The notes beneath the pieces are model-generated. The model was not told where the DNA came from, did not search any database, and saw only the letters and a program-made list of their open reading frames with translations. A DNA stretch of 64,000 nt from Fimbriimonadaceae bacterium (lineage in GTDB: Bacteria > Armatimonadota > Fimbriimonadia > Fimbriimonadales > Fimbriimonadaceae): positions 1,792,218 through 1,856,217 of the forward strand of contig CP075365.1 of NCBI GenBank assembly GCA_019454125.1, read 5' to 3'. A program made the position numbers and the translations under genes. Position 1 is the first letter of the stretch. Each line of letters starts with the position of its first letter. Below are positions 27,099-46,826 of this stretch, in pieces.

Positions 27099-30086
27099 GT
27101 GACCGACCGATACGAGCCGCAGTCCTTCGAAGCTAAATGGCGGGAAAGGTGGGCCCAAGCCGACCTCTTCCGCACGCGGGAAGCACCAGACCGACCGAAG
27201 TTCTACGGCTTGGACTTCTTCCCTTATCCCAGTGGGGCCGGTCTCAGCGTTGGCCACTGCCGTAACTATATCCCCACGGACGTCCTCTGCCGGATGCGGT
27301 ACATGCAAGGTCACAACGTTTTGCATCCCATGGGGTTCGACGCCTTTGGCCTCCCGGCCGAGAACGAGGCGATCAAGAACAAGACCCACCCTGCGCCAAT
27401 GATCGACCGGTACGCGGCCCGCTACCAGGAACAGATGACCTTGGTCGGCATCAGCTACGACTGGTCTCGCTCGTTCAAGTCCTGTGAGCCGAGCTACTAC
27501 CGCTGGACGCAGTGGATCTTCGAACTGCTCTACAAAAAGGGGCTCGCCTACCGGCGCAATGCCGAGGTCAACTGGTGCCCGAAGGACAAGACGGCTCTGG
27601 CGAACGAAGAGGTGGTGGGTGGCCTTTGCGACCGCTGTGGCACCCCGGTCGTGAGACGTGCGATCCCCCAGTGGTTCTTCAAGATCACCGACTACGCGCA
27701 GCGCCTCATCGACGACCTGGACACCATCGACTGGCCAGAAGGCATCAAGCAGATGCAGCGCAACTGGATCGGACGCAGCGAGGGAGTTGAGTTCGAGATG
27801 GAGGTTCGGATAGCCCGTCCCTCGGTTTATGGTGATGCTCCTGCCCCGAAAACTGAGGGAGCGGCCGGGGAGGGAGATCCGGAGTCTCCACCCCCAACCC
27901 CCTCCTCATTTTCACCCGCACAATCATCGGGCAAAAACGAGGAGGGGGCTCCGGAGAACCTCGCATTGCGCGAACGCGCACTCTCCATCCGCGTCTTCAC
28001 GACCCGGATCGACACGATCTTCGGCGTCACGTTCTGCGTCGTCGCGCCGGAGCACCCGCTTGTCAAGCAAGTGCTTCGAGACGCGGACGAAGGACGGCGG
28101 GAGGAGGTCGAGGCTTACGTCGCCACGGCCCAGCGCCTCACAGAAACGGATCGGCAGGCCGAGGGCCGCGAGAAGACCGGCGTCTTTTTGGGCGCCTACG
28201 CGCTCAATCCCCTGAGCGGGGAGCAGGTGCCCATCTACGTCGCCGACTACGTTCTGATGGGCTACGGCACCGGCGCGATCATGGCCGTTCCCGGCCACGA
28301 CCAGCGCGATTTTGACTTCGCGAAGAAGTACGGGATCGCGATCCGGCCCGTGATCTCTCCGGAAGCCCCTCCCTCGGTTTTCGGAGATGTCCGTGCCCAG
28401 GAAACTGAGGGAGGGGTTGGGGAGGGAGACTCCGGATCTCCACCCCCATCGGGCAAAGACAAGGAGGGGGCCTTTGAATCCAAAGACGGCTTCCTCATCA
28501 ATTCCGGCCTGTACAGCGGGTTGAGCGTCGCCGAAGCCCAAGAGAAGCTGGGCGAATGGTTCGAGCACAACCAAATCGGCGAGCGCAGGGTCAACTATAA
28601 GCTGCGCGACTGGCTAATCAGCCGCCAGCGATTCTGGGGCTGCCCGATCCCGGTCTGCTACTCCCCGGACGGCGACATGATGCTGATCCCGGAGGACCAA
28701 CTGCCGGTGGAACTGCCGCACGTCGAGAGCTACGAACCCGGCGACGACGGATCCTCCCCGCTCGCCGGCATCCCCGAATTCCTCAACTGCACGACGCCCG
28801 AGGGAACGCTCGGTCGACGCGAGACGGACACGATGGGCGGCTTCGCCTGCTCCTCGTGGTACTTCCTGCGCTTTGCCGACCCATTCAACGAAGCCGAGCC
28901 CTGGGACAGGGCGAAGGCCGACTACTGGATGCCGGTGGACTGCTATGTCGGCGGGGCCGAGCACGCGGTGATGCACTTGCTGTACGCCCGGTTTTGGACG
29001 AAAGTGCTCTACGACGCAGGGCTGGTCAGCGTCACGGAGCCCTTCTCCCGGCTCAAGAACCAGGGCCAGGTCCTTGGAAACACCCCCTACCGCGCTCCTC
29101 GCGAGGGCGAGACTTTGGGTGTCGGCGAGGACGGCATCTTGGTCTCTTACGCTGAGGCGTCCGCAATGCCCGACGAGGAGGTCACCTGGAAGTGGGTCCG
29201 CATGAGCAAGTCGAAGGGCAACGTCGTCACGCCGGAAGAGGCGGTCGAGGCGTTCGGCGCCGACGCCCTGCGCTTGTTCGAGCTCTTCGTCGCGCCGTTT
29301 GAAGCGGACGTCCAGTGGACGAACGAGGGAATGAACGGCACCTCGCGCTTCCTGACGCGCGTCTTCCGCCTCGTCGCAGAGATTCGGGACGACTTCGTGC
29401 CGGACTGGAGGATGAGGCTCGGCGAAGCCCCCCCCTCGGTTTTGGGGGATGATCGTGCCCCCGAAACTGAGGGGGGGGTTGGGGGGGGAGACTCCGGGCT
29501 CGCCCGCGACATCCGCCGCGCCACGCACAAGGCGATCGCCAAGGCGACCAAGGACATCGAGGCCTTCGCCTTCAACACCTACGTCTCCGGCTTGATGGAG
29601 TTTGTAAACACGCTTTATGACCTTCGCAAGCGGATGGCCGCCCCCTCTGCCCCAGAGGGCCGAGGGGGTTCCGGATCTCCACCCCCAACCCCCTCCTCAT
29701 TTTCACCCGCACAATCATCGGGCAAAACCGAGGAGGGGGCTCCGGAGGCCTTTAGCGAGGCGGTCGAGACTCTCGTCCTGCTCCTTTCCCCGGGTGCCCC
29801 GCACAGCGCGGACGAGCTGTGGGAGTCGCTGGGCAAGGAGGGCTTCACCTACCAGCAAGACTGGCCGACCGCCGACCCAGCGCTCGCCAAGGACGACGAA
29901 GTGACCATCGCCGTCCAAGTGAACGGCAAACTTCGCGACACGATCCTCATGCCGGCGGAGGCGACCAAGGACGAACTGGAGGCCGCCGCGCTCGCCTCGG
30001 CCAAGGTACAAACCTTTACGGATGGAAAGACGGTCAAAAAGGTGGTCGTCGTGCCCGGAAAGTTGGTGAACATCGTTGTCGGCTAA
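27099..30086 (+). CDS. leuS: leucyl-tRNA synthetase carrying four in-frame repeat insertions
   Basis: 995 residues; bacterial LeuRS is usually about 820-870. Class I core: FFPYPSGAGLSVGHCRNY (HIGH region, first His replaced by Ser), editing domain CP1 (VFTTRIDTIFGVTF, GTGAIMAVPGHDQRDFDFA), RMSKSKGN (KMSKS) and a C-terminal domain ending KKVVVVPGKLVNIVVG. The excess length comes from four low-complexity Pro/Ser/Gly/Glu blocks at residues about 239-287, 422-459, 776-800 and 847-883, each encoded by a palindromic element; removing them restores normal length. They fall at domain edges and surface loops, sparing motifs. It charges tRNA-Leu. GTG start. Confidence 0.95.
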   Translation: MTDRYEPQSFEAKWRERWAQADLFRTREAPDRPKFYGLDFFPYPSGAGLSVGHCRNYIPTDVLCRMRYMQGHNVLHPMGFDAFGLPAENEAIKNKTHPAPMIDRYAARYQEQMTLVGISYDWSRSFKSCEPSYYRWTQWIFELLYKKGLAYRRNAEVNWCPKDKTALANEEVVGGLCDRCGTPVVRRAIPQWFFKITDYAQRLIDDLDTIDWPEGIKQMQRNWIGRSEGVEFEMEVRIARPSVYGDAPAPKTEGAAGEGDPESPPPTPSSFSPAQSSGKNEEGAPENLALRERALSIRVFTTRIDTIFGVTFCVVAPEHPLVKQVLRDADEGRREEVEAYVATAQRLTETDRQAEGREKTGVFLGAYALNPLSGEQVPIYVADYVLMGYGTGAIMAVPGHDQRDFDFAKKYGIAIRPVISPEAPPSVFGDVRAQETEGGVGEGDSGSPPPSGKDKEGAFESKDGFLINSGLYSGLSVAEAQEKLGEWFEHNQIGERRVNYKLRDWLISRQRFWGCPIPVCYSPDGDMMLIPEDQLPVELPHVESYEPGDDGSSPLAGIPEFLNCTTPEGTLGRRETDTMGGFACSSWYFLRFADPFNEAEPWDRAKADYWMPVDCYVGGAEHAVMHLLYARFWTKVLYDAGLVSVTEPFSRLKNQGQVLGNTPYRAPREGETLGVGEDGILVSYAEASAMPDEEVTWKWVRMSKSKGNVVTPEEAVEAFGADALRLFELFVAPFEADVQWTNEGMNGTSRFLTRVFRLVAEIRDDFVPDWRMRLGEAPPSVLGDDRAPETEGGVGGGDSGLARDIRRATHKAIAKATKDIEAFAFNTYVSGLMEFVNTLYDLRKRMAAPSAPEGRGGSGSPPPTPSSFSPAQSSGKTEEGAPEAFSEAVETLVLLLSPGAPHSADELWESLGKEGFTYQQDWPTADPALAKDDEVTIAVQVNGKLRDTILMPAEATKDELEAAALASAKVQTFTDGKTVKKVVVVPGKLVNIVVG
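27812..27958 (+). repeat. in-frame palindromic element pair inside leuS (insertion 1)
   Basis: Two copies in opposite orientation. Copy A (from about 27816) has CCTCGGTTTATGG, TGCCCCGAAAACTGAGG, then a G-rich tract; copy B (from about 27878) has CCCCCAACCCCCTCCTC, CAATCATCGGGC and GAGGAGGGGGCTCCGG. The reverse complement of B matches A in order and spacing. The insert sits between LeuRS segments EFEMEV and SIRVFTTR, at the start of the editing domain. Confidence 0.85.
28364..28474 (+). repeat. in-frame palindromic element pair inside leuS (insertion 2)
   Basis: Copy A (CCCTCCCTCGGTTTTCGG, GAAACTGAGGGAGGGG) is followed by a shortened inverted copy B (CCACCCCCATCGGGCAAAG, AAGGAGGGGG) that lacks about 29 bases of its left arm. 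It lies in a loop of the LeuRS editing domain, after YGIAIRPVISPE and before the GFLINSGLYSGL segment. Confidence 0.85.
29426..29498 (+). repeat. in-frame palindromic element inside leuS (insertion 3)
   Basis: A single copy in orientation A: CCCCTCGGTTTTGGGGGATG, CGTGCCCCCGAAACTGAGGG and a tract of G's ending GAGACTCCGGG. It interrupts LeuRS after the catalytic core, before the helical anticodon-binding domain (LARDIRRATHKA). Confidence 0.85.
29638..29750 (+). repeat. in-frame palindromic element inside leuS (insertion 4)
   Basis: A copy in orientation B (CCCCCAACCCCCTCCTC, CCGCACAATCATCGGGC, GAGGAGGGGGCTCCGG), preceded by a second small palindrome CCCCCTCTGCCCCAGAGGG. It interrupts the anticodon-binding domain between YDLRKRMA and FSEAVETLVLLL. 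Confidence 0.85.
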
Positions 30087-45408: not shown

Positions 45409-46055
45409 ACCCCCTCCCCACGCTTGGGGAGGGGGAAGGGGGGAGGGGCAAAAGAAGCACTTCCCTCCCCACGCTTGGGGAGGCTCCAGATGCACGCTTA
45501 AGCCCCCTCCCCACGCTTGGGGAGGGGGAAGGGGGAGGGGATGGACACACCGCCGCTCCCAGGCTTGGGGAGGCTCCAGATGCACCCTTAAAACCCCCTC
45601 CCCACGCTTGGGGAGGGGGCAGGGGGGAGGGGCAAAAGAAGCACTTCCCTCCCCACGCTTGGGGAGGGGGAAGGGGGGAGGGGATGGACGCCCCGCCGCT
45701 AAGGGCACTTCCCTCCCCAGCCCCTGGAGCAGGCGGTCGAGGGCTTGCTCCAGATGAACGCTTAAACCCCCTCCCCACGCTTGGGGAGGGGGAAGGGGGG
45801 AGGGGCAAAAGAAACACTTCCCTCCCCACGCTTGGGGAGGGGGCAGGGGGGAGGGGCAAAAGAAGCACTTCCCTCCCCACGCTTGGGGAGGGGGAAGGGG
45901 GGAGGGGCAAAAGAAGCACTTCCCTCCCCAGGCTTGGGGAGGGGGAAGGGGGGAGGGGCAAAAGAAGCACTTCCCTCCCCACGCTTGGGGAGGGGGCAGG
46001 GGGAGGGGCAAACGATGCGCCGCCGCTCCACACGCTTGGGGAGGGGCGGGGAGTG
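45409..46055. repeat. array of about a dozen palindromic CCCTCCCC-ACGCTT-GGGGAGGG elements
   Basis: The core CCCTCCCCACGCTTGGGG (a hairpin with arms CCCTCCCC/GGGGAGGG) recurs about twelve times, mostly 50-51 bases apart, with G-rich spacers and a recurring GGCAAAAGAAGCACTTCC. Some copies have AGGCTT in the loop. The last codons of the upstream cyclase-ATPase gene are repeated within the array: short pieces near 45482-45502 and 45571-45592, and a longer piece around 45717-45766 (CCCCTGGAGCAGGCGG..., ending CGCTTAA). It is not CRISPR: no unique spacers. No gene is supported here. Confidence 0.9.
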
Positions 46056-46064
46056 AGGATCCCC

Positions 46065-46826
46065 CTAACCGCTAGCCACTGACACCCTTCCCACGACCAG
46101 AACCCCGGTCTGCTGCCCCGTGGCCGCGCGTACGAAACGGGTCGCGACGACGTACACTCCCGGCTCGACCGGCAGCGTGTAAGAGAGCGCCCCGGGCTCG
46201 AACCGGTGGAAAGCGGCCGAGGCGAAGCGGCCGGTCGGCTTGCGCCGCACGTTCGGCAACCGCTCCAGAAGGATCTCGGTGACCGACCCCGGCAGGTTCG
46301 GCCCGCTCGCCTGCACCACCAACACCCCCTCCCCAGGCTTGGGGAGGGGGCAGGGGGGAGGGGTGGACGAGGAGCCGCTGCTCCCAGGCTTGGGGAGGGG
46401 GTAGGGGGGAGGGGTGGAGAGCGCCTCCGCGACCGACACCGTGAACGTCACCGGATCGCCGGTGAACTCCGAAGAAGGTGGCGCCACGGGCACCTCGGCC
46501 GTGGGGTCGACCTGCAGCACCTTGGTCCCCAAGGCGCAGAAAGCGTTGAAGCCGCTGGGCCGGTACTCGCCGCCGGTCAGCCGGTTCAGCCGCACCACCG
46601 TCGCCGCATAGTCGTCCCAAGCCCGGGCCCCGTCGTGGCCCAACTCCTGCCACACCGCCGATACCTGCCGCATCCGCTCCGCCGCCGCCCGCTGGGTCGG
46701 GGCCAGCACGCGCCGAAACCGAGGCGGACGCCGAAAGACGAGCCCGCCCGCGCCGTTGACGACGACGATGCCGCCAACTTGACCTGCCACGTCCGAGACC
46801 AGCGCGCCCGGTGCTCCCTTTGCCAT
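46065..46826 (-). CDS. conserved protein paralogous to the gene at 55117, with in-frame repeat insertion
   Basis: 253 residues beginning MAKGAPGALVSDVAGQVGGI, paralogous to the protein at 55117-55830 (both have ARAWDDYAATV / AAWNAFGKT, FNAFCALGTKVLQVDPT / ISAFVELAVKFLQIAPN, FTGDPVTFTV / FTGDTITVSA, and RLPN-RRKP / RLPS-RNRRP segments). Function unknown; the family resembles short DUF6266-like proteins. Between VSVAEAL and VLVVQASG it has about 35 extra residues (STPPPYPLPKPG repeats) coded by two copies of the array repeat from 45.4-46.1 kb. It defines the left end of the accessory island. Confidence 0.6.
   Translation of the reverse strand: MAKGAPGALVSDVAGQVGGIVVVNGAGGLVFRRPPRFRRVLAPTQRAAAERMRQVSAVWQELGHDGARAWDDYAATVVRLNRLTGGEYRPSGFNAFCALGTKVLQVDPTAEVPVAPPSSEFTGDPVTFTVSVAEALSTPPPYPLPKPGSSGSSSTPPPCPLPKPGEGVLVVQASGPNLPGSVTEILLERLPNVRRKPTGRFASAAFHRFEPGALSYTLPVEPGVYVVATRFVRAATGQQTGVLVVGRVSVASG
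46321..46420. repeat. two palindromic array repeats inserted in frame in the 46065 gene
   Basis: CCCCTCCCCAGGCTTGGGG and CTCCCAGGCTTGGGGAGGG, each with the G-rich tail (GGGGGCAGGGGGGAGGGG / GGGGGTAGGGGGGAGGGG), in the middle of a coding region. The paralog at 55117 lacks them. Confidence 0.85.

Follow-up and report, generated by a model that had tools for sequence, protein, structure and literature searches.

Repeats able to form intrastrand triplexes have been known in bacteria for more than two decades, and to our knowledge there is little evidence so far for a role of the third strand in cells. The BoxC/PIT/TM repeats have been described as intrastrand triplexes of the class II purine motif, and Holder et al. 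saw no transposase in the neighbourhood of TM sites (PMC4666352). The published searches restricted the first loop to 1–6 nt in ITxF and to 0–10 nt in Hoyne's search, the latter as cited in PMC4666352. Palindromic DNA that is read as protein is known from the Rickettsia palindromic elements (RPEs), which lie in frame within proteins (PMC2229807, PMC3733652), and in-frame REPs have been described in other bacteria, including in uvrA and tRNA synthetase genes (PMC3733652). Our literature search found no report of such in-frame repeats for Armatimonadota.

The leuS gene of a Fimbriimonadaceae bacterium (Armatimonadota) lies in the window, that is, the whole 64,000-nt stretch of DNA that was analysed. 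It is the sole leuS among the matches listed for this genome, which include no second intact copy, and the FPYPSG and MSKSKGN motifs of the encoded LeuRS are undamaged. The ORF contains four low-complexity blocks, and the reading frame is preserved at all four sites. The original prediction described these blocks as six direct or inverted copies of one palindromic element; ORF and nucleotide comparison confirmed the four in-frame blocks and the relationship of the copies, while the count was revised to five complete units, one truncated copy on the right of site 2 and, probably, a further degenerate short hairpin on the left of site 4, as follows.

27099–30086, + strand: leuS, leucyl-tRNA synthetase, 995 aa, GTG start (TIGR00396, 944 bits).
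27812–27882, + strand: site 1, unit A (forward); covariance model R1, 63.9 bits; stem and triplex partly decayed.
27880–27950, − strand: site 1, unit B (reverse); R1, 84.3 bits; exact triplex match.
28364–28434, + strand: site 2, unit A (forward); R1, 80.5 bits; exact triplex match CCCCTCCCT/AGGGAGGGG/GGGGAGGGA.
28436–28472, − strand: site 2, truncated reverse unit; D4 repeat family, 92% over 28447–28471, and reading of the sequence.
29426–29496, + strand: site 3, single forward unit; R1, 91.3 bits; exact triplex match.
29641–29670, + strand: site 4, probable degenerate short hairpin unit (CCCCCTCTGCCCCAGAGGGCCGAGGGGG), from reading of the sequence.
29671–29741, − strand: site 4, unit B (reverse); R1, 82.4 bits; exact triplex match.

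The blocks are direct or reverse-complement copies of one hairpin unit. Nucleotide self-comparison gave identities of 80% and 68% between direct copies, 75–81% between inverted copies and 99% between the stretches 27885–27956 and 29676–29747. The five complete units score 63.9 to 91.3 bits with a covariance model made from 23 units. The two units of site 1 lie tail-to-tail and have TCCGG in common, and the truncated unit of site 2 is missing one arm and part of the loop.

Each unit is ~71–74 nt long, starts with AGCCCC, ends with GGAGA and has two stems, outer and inner, with a conserved GATG..GTGC loop. Covariation is evident in the hairpin, with 9 of 25 stem pairs changed on both sides, and the fold of the A strand has z-scores of −4.3 to −6.7. 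The palindromic description missed the putative third strand: 3′ of the stem, TT leads into a purine tail whose sequence mirrors the purine arm and which covaries with both arms of the hairpin. The first loop is structured and 33–36 nt long in this genome, and the second loop is TT. Arm and tail match in each of the stem classes CCCCTCCC, CCCCCTCC, CCCCCCCC and CCCCTTCC, and the tail base opposite A is either A or T. A triplex finder returned exact matches in leuS and none in shuffles. No known RNA family was found for the element in Rfam, where only tRNA exceeded the gathering score in the window.

The correspondence of the three strands was then counted over 69 distinct units. The mirrored tail class equalled the arm class in 63 of them, compared with a mean of 30 and a maximum of 44 in 20,000 shuffles and with 11 in an unmirrored control, and 527 of 552 triads were valid under the rule C-G.G, T-A.A or T-A.T; these counts are not independent, as the copies descend from each other, and inner-loop conversion between fixed ends could multiply a small number of concerted changes. 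In minimum spanning trees built from the inner loop, which control relatedness only partly, 17–22 of 25–30 stem-class changes were concordant on all three strands at both ends. Even with shared descent and conversion allowed for, every one of the four stem classes must have come into being with its three strands matched. Watson–Crick pairing of the tail with the 5′ arm was considered and rejected, as it conflicts with the interchange of A and T in the tail. Because either base occurs opposite A, the tail has no single fixed Watson–Crick partner, and the interchange agrees with the A(T).AT triads known for the purine motif (PMC4666352). G.T wobbles are near-invariant on the A strand, which also folds better (−25 versus −19.8 kcal/mol in the one unit tested both ways); these results suggest that the A strand is the folding strand. 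By its covariation signature, the element may be a class II purine-motif intrastrand triplex of the BoxC/PIT/TM type.

The confinement to leuS that had been proposed does not hold. Searches of the genome, a single contig of 2.65 Mb whose copies were sampled by sequence searches, revealed 24 strong units, 19 of them outside leuS, and at an E-value of 0.001 units were present in 37 of 151 genomes, the other 114 being without a unit at this threshold. Outside leuS, the best full copy in the genome reaches an E-value of 1e-42, which together with the z-scores of the unit fold excludes chance similarity. Eleven of the 24 strong units lie within coding frames, namely those of leuS (five), ispG (two), cysS, metS, ahcY and uvrA. 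In-frame units were also found in argS, nadA, nagA, ispG and the genes for an S9 peptidase and a family 2 glycosyltransferase in G001, in nrdJ and a GH38 enzyme gene in G016, in lysS in G085, and in GH2 and amidohydrolase genes in G078. The genomes G085 (L281–L290) and G078 (L291–L300) carry shorter-loop forms of the unit (56–66 nt) in high copy, some with GCGAAGC-like mini-hairpin caps.

Several units are nearly identical. The site 3 unit of leuS and the uvrA unit 1.7 Mb away differ at one aligned position, as do the reverse units of sites 1 and 4, and one leuS unit differs from one ispG unit at two; the copying of the element is therefore, judged by sequence, recent. Units are also clustered, with 12 gaps shorter than 6 kb where 1.2 are expected, and at L118 5883–6258 (G000:C1:1166882–1167257) three units form a tandem array with a 153-bp period. 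TCCGG forms the junction of paired units and is frequent at both borders of single ones. In ispG, a tail-to-tail pair occupies the place at which G001 has a single unit, and the difference is exactly 72 nt, in frame and with no target duplication seen; gain here and loss in G001 both fit. The leuS genes of the two genomes (75% protein identity) are too diverged to place the insert borders, and ispG alone could be used to look for a target duplication.

The statement that the window holds no copy beyond leuS stands for the long-loop form. The window does, however, hold a related array with the architecture of the leuS element and a sequence of a different family.

45410–46045, + strand: intergenic array of short class II triplex motifs (CCCCCTCCCCACGCTTGGGGAGGGGGAAGGGGGGAGGGG); five triplex-finder matches, zero in window shuffles.

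Similar-looking unannotated proteins that start with MAK..GALVSDVAGQVGGIVV or the like are encoded at 46065–46826 (− strand) of the window, at L125 7499–8197 (− strand) and at L111 1180–2010 (+ strand); each includes a triplex-type repeat in frame, and none has a Pfam or NCBIfam match.

Alignment placed the blocks at segment boundaries of LeuRS, as had been predicted of domain edges or loops. In the numbering of the Thermus thermophilus enzyme (1h3n), two of them map to the intervals 233–240 and 366–371, one just past residue 706 and one to the interval 762–768. All relatives aligned (23 in one alignment and 20 in another, from the same genus to other phyla) are without the four blocks, and an old family feature of LeuRS is thereby ruled out. 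Only one same-genus genome, G001, came up in the searches; its LeuRS has 890 residues and is 75% identical outside the blocks. Unrelated inserts occur at site 2 in G005 and at site 1 in G017: the former (L170) is an independent BoxC-type inverted pair, in frame, that encodes SPPWGRAGEG..SLTLPQGGG, and the latter (L169) is apparently another repeat peptide, QSAISDQPAESKIQNPKSEIEP. An AlphaFold model of LeuRS (pTM 0.81) has pLDDT values under 50 only at residues 242–292, 429–456, 780–797 and 855–874, which are the four blocks, although low values are partly expected there because no homologue aligns in the blocks. LeuRS is predicted to keep its fold, with four floppy segments of about 25–50 residues.

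All 17 host ORFs that were checked keep the frame and have no stops. Of 12 reverse copies, 11 are read in frame 2 (SPPPTPxSxS..EGGAP), although stops are nearly absent from all three frames; of 10 forward copies, 8 are read in frame 1, with units taken as independent in both statistics. Within each orientation, the chosen frames are those whose peptides are least cationic and most prone to disorder, with a Pro/Ser/Gly-rich bias. The analogy to RPEs that had been drawn therefore applies to behaviour, in that inserts lie in frame in conserved enzymes, prefer one frame and encode peptides predicted to be disordered. tRNA synthetases account for 5 of the 16 kinds of host gene (leuS, cysS, metS, argS and lysS).

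We consider it quite probable that the leuS blocks are copies of a short, non-autonomous, dispersed repeat of the triplex class, formed of a hairpin and a putative third strand, which is tolerated in frame. In such an element, the tail would fold back into the major groove of the hairpin by reverse-Hoogsteen pairing on one strand, and this putative single-stranded triplex would be what the copying machinery recognises. New copies would often settle beside old ones, so that tail-to-tail pairs and local clusters result. Insertions into genes would survive only at loops or domain edges, with the frame kept, and only if the frame in which they are read yields hydrophilic, disordered peptide rich in Pro, Ser, Gly and Glu; in leuS, insertion would have been tolerated at four sites.

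An improbable alternative is that the units are ordinary REP/BIME elements, moved by the REP-associated tyrosine transposases (RAYTs) of the genome, with the mirror tail incidental. The genome does encode two RAYTs (NF047646), and the units look like BIMEs in their inverted pairs and in having hairpin wobbles on one strand. However, no unit lies near either RAYT gene, the element has no GTAG or CGTC tag, and a REP/BIME reading leaves the three-strand covariation unexplained. The first RAYT gene has a palindrome of its own on its flanks, GCCTCGGCACG..CGTGCCGAGGC, which occurs at 25 places in the genome, and the second is adjoined by another (GGAGTGCGGAGGC); with different palindromes adjoining both genes, the RAYTs were rejected as the source of the element. 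At L125 6784–7446 (− strand), the C-terminal coding part of a RAYT gene includes a copy of its flanking palindrome. Y1 genes are commoner in family genomes with the element (27 of 33 versus 25 of 52; odds ratio 4.9, p 0.003, relatedness ignored), so that an HUH enzyme acting in trans is still to be considered. An HUH/Y1-type transposase in trans is the most plausible candidate for the mobiliser, and even this candidate is rather doubtful.

Two further alternatives concern the fate of the inserts in the protein. That selection in tRNA synthetases keeps them for their use as flexible linkers or regulatory segments is very unlikely. The share of tRNA synthetases among host-gene kinds, noted post hoc, is above that in the genome, and the inverted pair of G005 arose independently at the same LeuRS site, yet the bias is explained equally well if large essential multidomain proteins tolerate inserts, and unrelated enzymes are also among the hosts. 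Not even the same-genus G001 has the blocks, decay is under way in unit A of site 1, disorder is predicted for the segments, and we see no sign of an adaptive role of the leuS inserts. Translational bypass of the hairpin, like that of mitochondrial byps, would leave the blocks absent from the protein, and the presence of GC-rich hairpins within conserved genes speaks for it; we give it hardly any credence, since neither the uninterrupted frames of all 17 host ORFs nor the choice of frame by peptide composition would be needed if ribosomes skipped the insert.

A third strand that covaries with both arms makes the in-cell role of DNA triplexes testable and provides a natural test of it. It is possible, if somewhat short of probable, that a DNA triplex is here under natural selection in living bacteria, its three-stranded fold being what is recognised in a mobile repeat family that shows three-way covariation in at least four stem classes and has spread through the coding sequences of essential enzymes. 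The element also adds a lineage besides Rickettsia whose proteins, several tRNA synthetases among them, have repeatedly gained new segments from palindromic DNA, and its filled and unfilled sites, together with a clear frame preference, give a handle on how proteins absorb mobile DNA.

Among described systems, the third-strand covariation groups the element with the BoxC/PIT/TM repeats, and not with RPEs or with REPs linked to RAYTs. As in BoxC/PIT/TM_ECO, a pyrimidine arm, a purine arm and a mirror-image purine tail lie on one strand (Y-R-R), the triads are G-rich, A or T stands opposite A, inverted pairs occur and no mobilising enzyme is known. Unlike those repeats, it has another arm sequence, a second loop of TT, almost half of its units within genes and a structured first loop of 33–36 nt, so that the published searches, with limits of 6 or 10 nt, would not reach it. 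The TM_ECO/BoxC consensus CCCTCNCCC..GGGNGAGGG..GGGNGAGGG had no match in this genome and some in 14 of the 61 genomes searched.

The element shares with RPEs its palindromic form, its place in frame within conserved protein genes and the lack of a known mobility enzyme. It differs from them in its phylum, in its unit length (71–74 nt versus 105–146 bp), in lacking the CGTC end tag (it starts with AGCCCC and ends with GGAGA), a distinction drawn from published descriptions of RPEs, and in its mirror tail, no third strand having been reported for RPEs. With REP/BIME and intragenic GTAG/CGTC repeats it has in common short hairpins, dimers and in-frame copies in uvrA and tRNA synthetase genes; unlike them, it has no tag, no adjacent RAYT gene, a longer unit and the mirror tail. 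In-frame repeats are thus already known outside Rickettsia, whereas the element itself, its long structured loop and its three-strand covariation are new as far as our search reaches.
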